This document shows, one piece after another, positions 2,169 to 61,476 of a stretch of DNA of 64,000 nucleotides. The DNA comes from Dyella lipolytica. GTDB taxonomy: Bacteria; Pseudomonadota; Gammaproteobacteria; Xanthomonadales; Rhodanobacteraceae. Numbering within the stretch: the first letter of the stretch is position 1; every line of letters starts with the position of its first letter. A program made the position numbers and the translations under genes. The stretch is from contig NZ_BSNQ01000003.1 of NCBI RefSeq assembly GCF_030160075.1, positions 1,858,328 to 1,922,327 on the forward strand. Reading direction: 5' to 3'. The notes below the pieces were generated by a model. It searched no databases, was not told the origin of the DNA, and was given only the letters and a program-made list of their open reading frames with translations.

Positions 2169-2525
2169 TCACGGCAAGCGCATACCGCCCTGCCTACCGT
2201 TATAGAACCAGAACCCCGGACGATAGACGTGCAAGCGGCACACATCGAAGCCCTGGGCGACGATCATGCGGCCATCCGACAACATCGCGCGGAAATCGCG
2301 CAAACAAACGTCGTCGTCGTGCCACTCGAGCATGACGGCAAGCTGAGAGTCGAACGGACGATCCCCAAAATCTACATTGATCCAGCGACTGCTGCCGGTA
2401 GGTGCGATAGCAAAGGCGACAATCCTGTTCCGCGTATCGTTAATAACCTTGATGCTGTGACGGGATTCAGCGGTCGCAATCATCGGAAGACACGCGAGTA
2501 AAACGACAAGTGTCCACGAGCGCAT
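2169..2525 (-). CDS. Small secreted protein of unknown function
   Basis: 118 aa with a clear Sec signal peptide (MRSWTLVVLLACLPMIATA, cleavage near residue 19). The mature part is beta-rich in appearance, with two cysteines (in DDVCLRDF and FDVCRLHV) that could form a disulfide in the periplasm, and several aromatic residues near the C-terminus. I do not recognise a named family. A good Shine-Dalgarno (AAGGAGAA in the gene's sense) lies just upstream of the ATG. Confidence 0.72.
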   Translation of the reverse strand: MRSWTLVVLLACLPMIATAESRHSIKVINDTRNRIVAFAIAPTGSSRWINVDFGDRPFDSQLAVMLEWHDDDVCLRDFRAMLSDGRMIVAQGFDVCRLHVYRPGFWFYNGRQGGMRLP

Positions 2526-2733
2526 GATGTTCTCCTTTTAAAAGGCGCAGCAAGGCCCGCGATGGCATGACATCACGCCATCGTTCGGCACCTCGATTTA
2601 GAGAGACGCAACTAGATAGATGCAGGAAAACGGAATCCAGTTGCATAGCCCTCGGCTGCAACCGTTGCGCGGCTGGGCGTATCTATGTCCCTATAGACGC
2701 CCATAGCGGCGCTTGAGAATCCGGGAGGACATC
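2526..2733. other. Intergenic region between divergent small genes
   Basis: About 208 bases that must hold the promoters of the divergent secreted protein (minus) and small membrane protein (plus). I see a GGGAGGA ribosome-binding site at 2723-2729 for the plus gene. I could not identify convincing promoter hexamers or an ECF-type promoter. Confidence 0.4.
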
Positions 2734-3069
2734 ATGGAACACGATTTGGTCCCACTGACGCTTTTCGTCTGCATCACTTTCGGCATTACGTATGCCATCA
2801 AATTGCTGGTCAACGCGCGAGTGCGCATCAAGATGTTGCAGGCTTGTGACTCGAAAGAGCTGATCGAGTCCATCGTGCGAGGCGAGGATCATCTCGGCCG
2901 AATGGCATCCTTGCGTTGGGGGCTAGTACTTTTGCTGGAGGGATTGGGCTTTGGAGCCATTCAGTATTCGGGTTGGACGACCATTACCCCCGGCGCGATA
3001 GCCGTACTAATCGGCGCCTTCGGGTTGGGCTCACTGATCTATTTCCTGATCGCCCAACGTCTCAGCTAA
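2734..3069 (+). CDS. Small inner-membrane protein (DUF6249-like), upstream of ECF sigma module
   Basis: 111 aa. The ATG at 2734 is preferred over an upstream TTG (2713) because GGGAGGA lies 4-10 bases ahead. Three hydrophobic segments are apparent (~residues 5-24, 62-81, 88-107), with a short charged loop (CDSKELIESIVRGEDH) between the first two. Its architecture resembles DUF6249 proteins often found beside ECF sigma genes in Xanthomonadales; I base this on general appearance only. It sits 50 bases ahead of the sigma factor and may be co-transcribed with it. Confidence 0.7.
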   Translation: MEHDLVPLTLFVCITFGITYAIKLLVNARVRIKMLQACDSKELIESIVRGEDHLGRMASLRWGLVLLLEGLGFGAIQYSGWTTITPGAIAVLIGAFGLGSLIYFLIAQRLS

Positions 3070-3119
3070 TCGATCGGTCCGCATCCGGCCAGCCGAGTGT
3101 TGCCGAACCTACGCACTGC

Positions 3120-3692
3120 ATGAACCACTTCTCCGATCGCCCGATCGTCGATGCCGTACTGGCGAACGCGCCTGGCGCGTTCGAGCGGCTCGTGCGCGAG
3201 CATCAGCAGCTGTGCTGGCACATTATCTATCGCATGGTTCACCACCCCGAGGATACCCGCGAGTTGTGCCAGGACACCTTCCTGCGCGTGCACCAGAACC
3301 TGCGACAGTATCGTTACGAAAGCGCGTTAAAGTCCTGGATCGGCCGCATCGCCTACACCGTTGCGTTGCGTTATCTGGAACGCAAACGTATTGCCGTGGT
3401 CGACCCTCCATCGGATGACGATTCGCCCTGCCTGGTCGAAAATATCGGCGACGGCTTCGATCTCGAGACCGCTTACGCTGACAGCGACATCGCCTCGCGT
3501 CTTCACACTGCCATCGAGGCGCTGCCGCCTCTGCAACGCACTGTGCTGACGCTCTATCATCTCGATGAATTGCCAATCGGCGAGATCGCCAACATCACAG
3601 GATTGGCAGCAGGCACGATCAAGAGCCACCTGTTTCGCTCACGTCTGCGCCTGCGTGAAATGCTCGAGTCTGTGAACGGAGTGCCGTCATGA
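3120..3692 (+). CDS. ECF-type RNA polymerase sigma factor
   Basis: 190 aa from the ATG at 3120; the frame is open further upstream but overlaps the previous gene. Region 2 is seen at ~18-85 (AFERLVREHQQLCWHIIYRMV, DTRELCQDTFLRVHQNL, SWIGRIAYTVALRYLERKR). Region 4 is at ~130-185 (LPPLQRTVLTLYHLDELPIGEIANITGLAAGTIKSHLFRSRLRLREML), with the classic GTIKSHLFRSR helix. It should direct RNA polymerase to a small regulon. The downstream overlapping membrane protein is its probable anti-sigma factor. Confidence 0.9.
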   Translation: MNHFSDRPIVDAVLANAPGAFERLVREHQQLCWHIIYRMVHHPEDTRELCQDTFLRVHQNLRQYRYESALKSWIGRIAYTVALRYLERKRIAVVDPPSDDDSPCLVENIGDGFDLETAYADSDIASRLHTAIEALPPLQRTVLTLYHLDELPIGEIANITGLAAGTIKSHLFRSRLRLREMLESVNGVPS

Positions 3693-55162: not shown

Positions 55163-56440
55163 ATGCCGCACCGCCAACTCAAGCAACCTATCGGACCTTT
55201 CGCGCTGACTCGCACCCTTGCGTGGCTGCGTTTGTGCGCTATCGCCGGCCAAAGCATGGCGGTGCTGGTCTGTGCGTGGTGGATGCAGATCAATATCCCG
55301 ACACTGTCACTGCTGCTTGGCATCGATCTGCTTGCGGTATTCGCGGTATTCGCAGCGTGGCGAATCAGCCAGCCGTGGCCGGTACGCGAGTGGGAAACGG
55401 TGTGCCATGTCGCCGCTGATACGCTGGTACTGGGTTACTTGCTGTACTTCACCGGCGGCGCAAGCAACCCCTTTGTCACCTTGCTATTGGTACCTATCGC
55501 ACTAAGTGCCGCCGCCCTATCGGTGCGCGCCGTGCTGGCCGTTGCCAGCATCGCCGGAGCGGCTTACTTCGTTTTGCTGAGCTGGTATGTACCGTTGCCG
55601 ATGAACGAGCGAATGGGCAGCGATCAAGGCTTCTCGTTGCATGTCGCTGGCATGGGCGTGAACTTCGCCATCACGGCGCTGCTACTCGGCTTCTTCATCA
55701 ACCGATTGGCCACCGCTGTACGTATGCAGCAGCTGGAAGTGCAACGCGCCCGTGAACGAGCATTGCGCGACGAAGGCATCCTGGCCATCGCCACGCAGGC
55801 GGCCGGCGCAGCGCACGAACTCAATACGCCCTTGTCGACCATGCGTACTCTGTTACCGGAACTGCGCCGCGAACATGCTGCGGATGCTGCGCTGGACGAA
55901 GATCTCGTGTTGCTGGAAGGCCAGGTCGAACGCTGCCGCACCATCTTGCGCGAGATGGTCGCGTTCGGAAAAGCGCAGTTGTCGCAGCAATCCGAGCGGA
56001 TCGACTTACCATCCTTCATCCACGGCTGCGTAGAACGCTTCCAGCTTCTGCGCCCGGAGGCAGAACTCGAATTGCGCGTGCAGGCGGGCCTCGAAAACAT
56101 CGTGCTGCGTACGCCACCCGGCTTACGCCATGCCCTGCTCAATTTGCTCAACAACGCCGCCGACGCATCGGCCTTGCGCGACTCCCACAGTGTGATGCTG
56201 GAAGTGCGCCGCGAAGGTCACTGGCTGGATTGGATCGTGCGCGATCGCGGCCCCGGCTTTACGCCCTCGGGCGCTCCAGCCGCGATCGGCGAGAGCGGCA
56301 AGCAAAGCGGCCTGGGTATTGGCTTGGCGCTGGCCGAGGCGACCGCCGAGCGATTAGCCGGCGAGTTGATCACCGCCAATACCGAAAACGGCGCAGAAAT
56401 GTGCTTGCGGCTGCCGATAGCAGTGATCGCTGAAGACTAG
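55163..56440 (+). CDS. regB: RegB/PrrB-type redox-sensing histidine kinase
   Basis: 425 aa. Six hydrophobic segments (~25-175) containing GGASNPF (98-104), which matches the GGxxNPF quinone-binding motif of RegB. The H-box is GAAHELNTPLSTM with His218. Cys258 in VERCRTIL sits where RegB has its redox-active cysteine. The HATPase domain is complete (NLLNNAADASA, VRDRGPGF, GLGIGLALAEATAERLAG). In phototrophs RegB signals respiratory quinone redox state. Followed by a RegA-like regulator after 59 bases. Confidence 0.9.
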   Translation: MPHRQLKQPIGPFALTRTLAWLRLCAIAGQSMAVLVCAWWMQINIPTLSLLLGIDLLAVFAVFAAWRISQPWPVREWETVCHVAADTLVLGYLLYFTGGASNPFVTLLLVPIALSAAALSVRAVLAVASIAGAAYFVLLSWYVPLPMNERMGSDQGFSLHVAGMGVNFAITALLLGFFINRLATAVRMQQLEVQRARERALRDEGILAIATQAAGAAHELNTPLSTMRTLLPELRREHAADAALDEDLVLLEGQVERCRTILREMVAFGKAQLSQQSERIDLPSFIHGCVERFQLLRPEAELELRVQAGLENIVLRTPPGLRHALLNLLNNAADASALRDSHSVMLEVRREGHWLDWIVRDRGPGFTPSGAPAAIGESGKQSGLGIGLALAEATAERLAGELITANTENGAEMCLRLPIAVIAED

Positions 56441-56499
56441 GTGAGCGTTCGGTCTGCGTATCCGGCAAAATAGGCCTGCAGATACGTCAGGAAGTACCC

Positions 56500-57087
56500 A
56501 TGATTCACCCGAACCAAGCAAGCAGCATCCGTCCGCTGTTGATCGTGGACGACGATGCCACCTTCGTGCGCGTACTCAGCAGGGCACTGACATCACGCGG
56601 TTTCGAAGTACTCAGCGCCAGCGATGCCGACGAAGCCCGCGCACTGACACTACGCCATCAACCACGCCATTGCGTACTCGACCTCAAGCTGGGGGACGAA
56701 AACGGATTGCGACTGATACCCGAACTGCACGAACTCGTTCCGGATATGCGCATTCTGCTGCTCACGGGTTACGCATCGATCGCCACCGCTGTCGAAGCCA
56801 TCAAGCGCGGCGCGCACGATTACCTGTCCAAGCCGGTCGACGCGGATGCTGTCGTCCGCGCATTGCTTGACGGCGATACCGCACCACAAGGCGATGACGA
56901 TGTGATGGACGCACCCGAGGCGCCGCTTGCACTGCGTCGCCTGGAATGGGAACACATCCAGCGCGTACTCACCGAATGCGACGGCAACATCTCAGAGACG
57001 GCACGCCGACTCGGCATGCATCGCCGCACGCTGCAGCGCAAATTGAGCAAGCATCCGGTGCGCGAAAGGCCAACAAACGAGGGTTAG
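56500..57087 (+). CDS. regA: RegA/PrrA-type response regulator with Fis-type HTH
   Basis: 195 aa. Receiver with IVDDD (15-19), phospho-acceptor Asp61 (CVLDLKLGDENGL), Thr in LLLTGYASIATAVEAIKRGAHDYLSKPVD, then a linker with acidic and proline residues and a C-terminal Fis-type HTH (HIQRVLTECDGNISETARRLGMHRRTLQRKLSK), nearly the RegA signature. With the upstream kinase it should control respiratory or redox genes. Confidence 0.92.
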   Translation: MIHPNQASSIRPLLIVDDDATFVRVLSRALTSRGFEVLSASDADEARALTLRHQPRHCVLDLKLGDENGLRLIPELHELVPDMRILLLTGYASIATAVEAIKRGAHDYLSKPVDADAVVRALLDGDTAPQGDDDVMDAPEAPLALRRLEWEHIQRVLTECDGNISETARRLGMHRRTLQRKLSKHPVRERPTNEG

Positions 57088-59736: not shown

Positions 59737-60720
59737 CTAAGACACGGGCAACGGTCGCGGAAAACGAATTTCCGCCACATACCGGCTTCCGCCTTGCACA
59801 TGCAAATTCAGCGGCCACGCAAAACGCTCGCTGATTCGCCGCGCGATGGCGTATTCGAACCCCTGCTGCCCGGGCGCAAGAGGATCGTGGTCCATGCCTG
59901 CGGTAGCGCTAACGCTAACCACCCCAGGTAGCACGCTCACCAGCACGGTGCCCTGTCCGGTGTACTGACTGGCATGACGGATCAGTTGCCAGCACAGCAC
60001 CGCGAATACGCGCGGTGATCCGTGCAAAGCGAACGTCGCGGGCTCTTCGAATTTCAATTCGATCGGATGGCCGTGCAGCATCTCGCGCGCATCGACAAGT
60101 TCCTCGCGCAGCACGTCATTCACTACGAAATCCTCTTCGCCCTGGCCGTTATCGGCCTCGCGCGCCAGGATCAGCAGCGCTTCGACCAGCGCTTCCATCT
60201 CGCGTGTCGCGCGCCGGATGCGCTGTACGGAGCGTTGCCCGAATTCGCTGAGCGCCGATTCATCGGCGAGCATGTCAGTCGACATTTTGATCACGGTGAG
60301 CGGACTGCGCAGTTCGTGACTGGCATCGCGGGTGAAGTGGCGTTCGCGCTCGTTGTAACCGGCAATGCGGTTGGCAAAGGCGTGGAATCCGCGCGTCAGC
60401 GCCGCCACATCCGCATCGGTTCGACGCGATAGCCGATCGGGCTGCAAGACGTCCAGGCCACCTTGCCGCTCGTCCCAGCTGCCGACTAGCTGCGCAAGCA
60501 CACTCACCGGCCGCCACACCCGTTGCGCCGCCAACCACGACAGTGCGCTGACGATCACGATCAGCAGCAGCACCGCCCACACCGGTGCGACGTTGTAGTA
60601 ACCCATCAGGCACGCAACCACCACCGCCACGAGCTGCATGCCGAAAATCAGCATCAACCGGCGTTGAAAGCCACCGCGCGCAAGCGCAGCGCGTGGGTGG
60701 GGCGCTCCTCTCGGGGTCAT
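59737..60720 (-). CDS. Sensor histidine kinase with degenerate ATP-binding domain
   Basis: 327 aa. Two membrane helices close together (~22-41 and 47-66) leave almost no periplasmic loop. A HAMP-like linker and the HisKA box ERHFTRDASHELRSPLTVIK (His135) follow. The HATPase domain is eroded. The N-box reads QLIRHASQYT (expected NLLxNAxxYT, so the Mg-ATP Asn is His249). The DxGxG box is replaced by VSATAGMDHDP, and the GxGxG lid by GQQGFEYAIARRISERF. It may be a phosphatase or signal-relay pseudokinase. It lies 24 bases behind its response regulator. Confidence 0.87.
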   Translation of the reverse strand: MTPRGAPHPRAALARGGFQRRLMLIFGMQLVAVVVACLMGYYNVAPVWAVLLLIVIVSALSWLAAQRVWRPVSVLAQLVGSWDERQGGLDVLQPDRLSRRTDADVAALTRGFHAFANRIAGYNERERHFTRDASHELRSPLTVIKMSTDMLADESALSEFGQRSVQRIRRATREMEALVEALLILAREADNGQGEEDFVVNDVLREELVDAREMLHGHPIELKFEEPATFALHGSPRVFAVLCWQLIRHASQYTGQGTVLVSVLPGVVSVSATAGMDHDPLAPGQQGFEYAIARRISERFAWPLNLHVQGGSRYVAEIRFPRPLPVS

Positions 60721-60744: not shown

Positions 60745-61476
60745 TTAGGCGATATGGCTGGTGGACGTGGTCTCGGCATCGAGATCGGCCAGGCGATAAC
60801 CGGCCGAATGAATGGTGTGCAGCAGGGGCCGGTCGAACGGTTTGTCGATGAGACGTCGCAGGTTGTAAAGGTGAGAGCGCAACGTGTCCGAATCGGGCAA
60901 GGTATCGCCCCAGATTTCGCGCTCGATGTCGCGCCGGCTCACTACGCGCGGCGATTCGCGCATCAGGATCGCCAGCAACTTCAAGCCGATCGGCGAGACG
61001 GTGAGCTCCTGGCCACCACGCGTTAGACGCAAAGTGGCGGTGTCCAACGTCATGTCGCCAACGGTCAGCACCTCGCTGGACACCTGTCGTCGATCGCGAC
61101 GAATCAGCGCACGCAGGCGCGCCTCCAGTTCGCGTACCTCGAACGGTTTCACCAGGTAGTCGTCGGCGCCCGCCTCGAGGCCGACCAGCTTGTCCTCCAG
61201 CGTGTCCCGCGCGGTAAGCATCAGTACGGGTGTGGACTTCTTGGCCTCGCCACGCAGCTTGCGGCACACATCCAGGCCGTCGATGCCAGGCAGCATCAGG
61301 TCCAACACCACGACGTCGTAGCTGTTGGCTACCGCCAGATGCAGTCCGCTGACACCATCCTGAGCAAAATCAACGGAGTAACCTCGGCGCTCCAGAAATT
61401 CGCCAACCATTTCCGCGATCTGGCGATTGTCTTCGACCAGCAGGATCAATCCGGCGTGTTCGTCACGTGAACTCAT
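60745..61476 (-). CDS. OmpR/PhoP-family response regulator
   Basis: 243 aa. Receiver (1-125) with VEDN at 14-17, phospho-acceptor Asp59 (VVLDLMLPGIDGL), Thr in MLTARD and Lys in YLVKPFE. A winged-helix DNA-binding domain follows (~145-230: LTRGGQELTVSPIGLKLLAILMRESPRVVSRRDIEREIWGDTLPDSDTLRSHLYNLRRLIDKPF). All phosphorylation residues are intact, in contrast to the ATPase domain of the partner kinase. Confidence 0.93.
   Translation of the reverse strand: MSSRDEHAGLILLVEDNRQIAEMVGEFLERRGYSVDFAQDGVSGLHLAVANSYDVVVLDLMLPGIDGLDVCRKLRGEAKKSTPVLMLTARDTLEDKLVGLEAGADDYLVKPFEVRELEARLRALIRRDRRQVSSEVLTVGDMTLDTATLRLTRGGQELTVSPIGLKLLAILMRESPRVVSRRDIEREIWGDTLPDSDTLRSHLYNLRRLIDKPFDRPLLHTIHSAGYRLADLDAETTSTSHIA

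Follow-up and report, generated by a model that had tools for sequence, protein, structure and literature searches.

A histidine kinase that has lost both its sensor and its ATP pocket is strictly maintained beside its partner regulator throughout much of one family of soil bacteria. The representative analyzed here is encoded in a 64,000-nucleotide stretch of the Dyella lipolytica genome, hereafter, the window (Table 1). We give an even chance to the interpretation that this protein is a membrane-tethered, ATP-independent partner that docks its own response regulator and removes its phosphate.

The kinase retains an intact HisKA helix (H135-E136-L-R-S139-P) within a Pfam HisKA match at residues 127–187 (PF00512, 6.4e-14), and has no match to the ATP-binding domain profile HATPase_c (PF02518) even at E ≤ 10. 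Its N-box reads QLIRHASQYT, with Q245 and H249 and neither asparagine; no DxGxG motif is found, the G1, F, and G2 boxes are absent, G287 is the sole glycine left where relatives read GGHGVGL, and the lid is about 13 residues long versus 30 in an intact relative. The two transmembrane helices are separated by about six residues, and there is no sensor or input domain. The start codon is uncertain, the first 14 residues being poorly predicted. Together these features bear out a sequence-only reading of the same DNA, which had described a normal HisKA box with His135, a replaced N-box asparagine, no DxGxG, missing lid glycines, and two membrane helices with almost no sensor loop; the search with the HATPase_c profile agrees with it. 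A sequencing or frame error behind the short protein is ruled out by the 76 orthologues that share this short form with an open frame.

The genome encodes 23 HisKA proteins, of which 22 carry HATPase_c, the protein described here being the sole exception, and four carry a receiver domain (hybrid kinases). Neither a second orthologue nor a full ColS-like kinase was found elsewhere in the genome; the next match is an intact paralogous kinase with 30% identity. A search of a plasmid collection returned distant kinases only, none covering 80% of the query. The window also contains a normal-looking two-component pair nearby (55163–57087, + strand), made up of a RegB/PrrB-like kinase of 425 amino acids with an ATP-binding domain and a RegA/PrrA-like regulator of 195 amino acids.

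Table 1. Features of the eroded kinase gene and its partner regulator gene, in window coordinates.
Feature	Position	Strand	Basis or remark
Eroded HisKA histidine kinase gene, 327 aa	59737..60720	-	Open reading frame; HisKA only
Transmembrane helix 1 (residues 22–40)	60601..60657	-	Hydropathy; helix in AlphaFold2 model
Transmembrane helix 2 (residues 47–65)	60526..60582	-	Hydropathy; AlphaFold2 model
DHp (HisKA) hairpin (residues 125–187), most conserved part, dN/dS about 0.02	60160..60348	-	
Phosphoacceptor His135 codon, then Glu136 and Ser139	60316..60318	-	Orthologue alignment
Catalytic/ATP-binding (CA) domain remnant (residues 196–320), predicted compact alpha/beta fold without lid	59761..60135	-	AlphaFold2, Foldseek
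Degenerate N-box QLIRHA (residues 245–250; NLLRNA in intact relatives)	59971..59988	-	
G1-lid-G2 remnant (residues 275–287), 13 aa versus 30 aa in intact relative	59860..59898	-	
Cognate OmpR/PhoB-type response regulator gene, 243 aa	60745..61476	-	24 bases upstream of kinase gene, same strand
Phosphorylated Asp59 codon of regulator	61300..61302	-	106/106
Met61 (D+2) codon of regulator	61294..61296	-	Met in 104/104 not counted as kinase-less

An AlphaFold2 model of the eroded kinase, built with 75 orthologues (mean pLDDT 79, pTM 0.63), predicts two transmembrane helices, a long DHp hairpin, and a compact alpha/beta domain. The pLDDT of the alpha/beta domain is mostly 85–95, and that of the lid remnant is 65–72; 13 residues lie between the strand at 267–274 and the helix at 288–299, versus 30, including a lid helix, in an equivalent model of an intact relative. 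Foldseek placed the RetS kinase region in complex with the GacS DHp (7n0e) first, then GacS and CpxA, with a loose whole-chain superposition (rmsd 4.6–18), so the match is domain by domain. Set against the published description of ChpT, the model likewise holds a DHp hairpin and a lid-altered Bergerat fold.

Erosion of this kinase is widespread in the family. We collected orthologues from 61 relatives and then from 234 genomes of the family, fetching 138 loci; judged by score, the short form is present in about 137 of the 234 genomes, distributed over 17 genera of this one family. Residue by residue, we compared 76 eroded orthologues with 23 full-length relatives belonging to this family or to others of the order. 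All 76 are open and 324–350 amino acids long. DxGxG and GxGxGL are each found in 0/76 eroded proteins and in 23/23 full-length relatives. HisKA is matched in 75/75 eroded orthologues and HATPase_c in 36/75 at E ≤ 1 (best 2.4e-4); among the intact relatives HATPase_c is matched in 23/23 (best 1.7e-24). The full-length relatives have a periplasmic loop of 85–106 amino acids, and the eroded proteins have a hairpin in place of the sensor, mostly of about six residues where both transmembrane helices were scored. One of the full-length relatives, a kinase from another family (L040 in genome G046, 2378–3478, − strand), is an exception, with only 11 residues between its scored helices but an intact ATP site. 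The His and Glu of the HExx(S/T) motif are kept in 76/76 eroded orthologues, and the H+4 position is Ser in 71 and Thr in five.

Since all 76 eroded forms lie on one side of a single branch (SH-aLRT 100) in a phylogeny of 100 kinases, the combined loss of sensor and ATP site is, on this tree, of single origin in the 76-member clade. The second N-box Asn is kept in 46 of the 76 proteins; in the other 30 it has changed to His (25), Asp (4), or Tyr (1), and it was lost in several lineages, Dyella among them, as would be expected once ATP/Mg binding stops constraining the residue. Its presence in the 46 means that the erosion did not begin with the N-box Asn; the G1, F, and G2 boxes and the sensor were therefore lost first. 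The sequence-only reading had proposed to check whether loss of the N and G1 boxes is conserved: G1 is absent from 76/76, and loss of the second N-box Asn is not universal. A second, independent erosion has occurred in genus g41 (L138/L197 in genome G068 and L198 in genome G064), where the kinases lack transmembrane helices and sensor, have a shortened lid, and show an altered or lost G2. They retain HELRTP, and their regulator retains M61, E26, and F27. The kinase is intact in the other g41 members checked (L136, L183–L192).

Across 18 close eroded pairs compared by codon, dN/dS was lowest in the DHp (0.024), followed by the C-terminal part (0.047), the first half of the CA (0.053), the G1/lid remnant (0.145), and the TM/HAMP region (0.188); the CA as a whole gave 0.075. 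The intact pairs are few (5), and absolute dN/dS differences between the groups should not be over-read. By these values the remnant protein is maintained under strong purifying selection (0.02–0.08 in DHp and CA), and the loosest part of its cytoplasmic kinase core is the old ATP-lid stretch. At matched DHp divergence (60–75% identity), eroded pairs share 34% identity in the G1/lid segment versus 48% for intact pairs, and 86% versus 80% in DHp helix 1.

The partner regulator has a normal receiver and winged helix (Response_reg 1.7e-30, Trans_reg_C 3.9e-16) and, as the sequence-only reading had stated, every phosphorylation residue (E15, D16, D59, T88, K110). E15, D59, T88, and K110 do not vary across 106 orthologues, and 105 of these have D16; identity within the eroded clade is 87–98%. 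Some lineages have the regulator and no kinase. Six species of genus g22 have a regulator beside which the kinase gene is cleanly missing, which brings the end of the CoA-transferase gene, normally located after the kinase, close to the regulator. In genome G174, tesA and the regulator are present, and the kinase and its neighbours are lost; genome G229 has an additional kinase-less regulator copy at a second locus (L181). Contig 7 of G229 holds two extra regulator copies, L181 and L182 (78% and 64% identical), about 12 kb apart, and at least L181 has no adjacent ColS-like kinase. No significant remnant of the kinase gene was detected by tblastn at the orphan-regulator sites. Asp59 is kept in all of the regulators without a kinase gene (L050, L126, L127, L128, L176, L178, L179, L181).

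The residue two positions after Asp59 (D+2, residue 61) is Asn, Ser, and Ser in the three kinase-less lineages (g22, G174, and the G229 copy, respectively) and Met in 104/104 others, alike with a dead or a live kinase partner, one of the 104 (L180) lying at a contig end with its partner out of view. Of 66 near-invariant receiver sites, M61 alone differs in all three lineages, which represent 10.6% of the tree length; three of three would arise by chance with a probability of about 0.001. The g22 regulators have also changed E26A and F27A in receiver helix 1, as well as D91G; this Asp, at T+3, is replaced by Gly in most kinase-less regulators. Residues 26 and 27 lie in a helix that contributes to the choice of kinase partner (PMC2991266). 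Changes at the docking face and active site are confined to regulators without a kinase, and regulators with a dead kinase resemble those with a live one, which suggests continued engagement of the regulator by the dead kinase. From these three lineages, considered after the fact, we infer that the dead kinase serves as an off-switch and that lineages without it compensate through changes in the regulator itself.

On this evidence, all of it comparative, we propose that the protein descends from a ColS/VgrS/DetS-like sensor kinase and now serves its own regulator as an ATP-independent, membrane-tethered partner. The eroded kinase would be unable to autophosphorylate, while its DHp homodimer would still dock the regulator, and the HxxxS/T pair, His135 and Ser139, would hydrolyse or withdraw phosphate from Asp59. 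Phosphate would reach the regulator from another source, either acetyl phosphate or a non-cognate kinase. Regulators with Met/Arg at D+2/T+2 tend to self-dephosphorylate slowly. A regulator with this pair would self-phosphorylate readily yet lose its phosphate slowly by itself, and would therefore depend on a partner for its inactivation; in lineages without the partner gene, Asn or Ser at D+2 would be expected to take the partner's place by speeding self-dephosphorylation. Precedent comes from HK853, in which H260 with T264 catalyses the HisKA phosphatase activity and H260A diminishes it (PMC5727384), and from the finding that Thr or Asn at H+4 is required for phosphatase, not for kinase, activity (PMC3510030). 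The HisKA phosphatase motif, His with Ser/Thr/Asn at H+4, is present in 76/76 eroded orthologues.

Several points weigh against a protein that is a phosphatase only. The Glu after the HisKA His is needed for kinase and not for phosphatase activity (PMC3510030), so its retention as Glu136 in 76/76 fits continued phosphorylation of His135. A phosphotransferase, too, would be expected to show purifying selection on its DHp, and the D+2 pattern is drawn from three lineages, of which one is represented by a second-locus copy. Autophosphorylation from small molecules is likewise influenced by D+2, and the change could compensate for a lost phosphoryl donor instead. An ADP- or ATP-bound CA helps phosphatase activity in some kinases, and the eroded kinase is, judged by its residues, without a usable site for either. 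In an elaboration that we regard as improbable, the phosphatase core would be a sensor-less switch: in an acid cytoplasm His135 would be protonated (as in HK853/EnvZ), turning the phosphatase off and letting acetyl-phosphate-charged regulator accumulate, and other lineages would have dropped the protein and gained an off-switch through D+2.

A histidine phosphotransferase of the ChpT, Spo0B, or PhyT type, in which His135 would relay phosphoryl from another receiver, on a hybrid kinase or stand-alone, to the regulator, is rather unlikely, albeit the alternative to which we give most weight. The predicted architecture is the same, a DHp four-helix bundle with a lid-altered Bergerat fold; membrane-tethered versions are known (Spo0B-TM, PMC12826061; PhyT, PMC5898713); His135 is invariant in the eroded orthologues (76/76); and hybrid kinases are present in the genome, the four noted above. 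However, no receiver adjoins the gene and no upstream receiver was identified, and Spo0B and ChpT are absent from the sequence matches to solved structures at E ≤ 0.01. Moreover, the regulator is still paired with the kinase in its operon and survives loss of the kinase gene in two lineages, and the eroded kinase is therefore no indispensable donor there. Conservation of the His is not decisive between phosphatase and phosphotransferase, as it takes part in both. Somewhat less probable than the relay is a heterodimer, with the CA of another, intact kinase phosphorylating His135 in trans, or with modulation of another kinase as RetS acts on GacS. The kinase-specific Glu136 is kept (PMC3510030), the model's best structural match is the RetS kinase region complexed with the GacS DHp, a lab-evolved ChrS pseudokinase acts via the paralogous kinase HrrS (PMC9491836), and an intact paralogous kinase is encoded in the genome. 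That nearest intact paralogue is only about 30% identical, however, and the D+2 pattern points to chemistry on the protein's own regulator. DHp dimer interfaces are usually selective.

A pure scaffold, holding the regulator at the membrane without phosphoryl chemistry, is an improbable role. PhyT does sequester PhyR at the membrane (PMC5898713), and the main clade retains both transmembrane helices, but the helices are lost in the second eroded lineage, and strict retention of His, Glu, and Ser/Thr together with an active-site pattern at D+2 would be unexpected. An active autokinase using an unrecognised ATP site is very improbable: the CA fold is retained in the model and confidently predicted, yet the G1 Asp that contacts adenine, the F box, and the G2/lid glycines are missing in 76/76 and the second N-box Asn in 30/76, the lid is deleted, and HATPase_c is never above the cut-off. 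The loss of autokinase activity that the sequence-only reading had proposed, and that we likewise infer, is thereby strongly supported across the family. Slightly harder still to credit is a pseudogene in the course of decay; two lineages have indeed deleted the gene, but it is open in 76/76 with the short form conserved across genera, and the low dN/dS in DHp and CA refutes decay as a general reading. Of the three roles that the sequence-only reading had put forward, phosphatase is favoured by the strict HExx(S/T) motif and by D+2 changes confined to regulators without a kinase gene; an adaptor phosphorylated by another kinase and a regulator of a second system are less likely.

By descent, on the available sequences, the eroded kinase belongs to the ColS-like group (RaxH, VgrS, DetS, ColS), because regulator identity is 67–98% (67–88% with the full-length relatives of the order), the regulator–kinase gene order is the same, and the kinase tree places it there. 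It shares with this group the operon and a HisKA/EnvZ-type transmitter; unlike these kinases, which keep a sensor domain and an ATP site, it has neither. The periplasmic domain of the intact relatives mostly lacks the ExxE metal motif, as described for DetS (PMC8306577), which points to DetS, known here by its published description, as a candidate orthologue.

In its likely mode of working the protein resembles several systems, and we would file it with none of the phosphotransferases or the pseudokinases. ChpT (Caulobacter) and Spo0B (Bacillus) are DHp-based and pass phosphate without using ATP themselves, the lid of ChpT is likewise remodelled (PMC3433190), and Spo0B-TM and PhyT are also membrane-bound; ChpT, Spo0B, and PhyT work in phosphorelays, however, whereas the eroded kinase is still in its original operon with its original regulator. 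RetS (Pseudomonas aeruginosa), its best structural match (7n0e), is a large hybrid sensor targeting GacS, and the eroded kinase has no sensor or receiver. DivL and the lab-evolved ChrS pseudokinase are also histidine kinases that act without autokinase activity (PMC4211667, PMC9491836), but DivL senses a regulator with its own output domain, and ChrS_CA-fs is a truncated laboratory mutant whose own His is dispensable. The bifunctional HisKA phosphatases EnvZ, HK853, and CrdS share HExx(S/T), with His and H+4 carrying the phosphatase activity (PMC5727384, PMC3510030), and differ in that they also autophosphorylate, an ability that the eroded kinase would lack. We found no published report of this eroded family, or of a phosphatase-only kinase of its kind, in the open-access literature.

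Kinase-dead histidine kinases have been described as single cases, most of them no longer in their original operon. Here, a single locus preserves ordered stages, from an intact kinase through loss of the sensor and ATP site, then loss of the N-box, to loss of the gene with a retuned regulator, and the second independent erosion adds to this natural series of steps from kinase to another function. Two questions become testable in this family: which of its two activities a bifunctional kinase cannot do without, and how a regulator adjusts once its off-switch is gone. Here, the eroded kinase was most likely kept to switch its regulator off rather than on.
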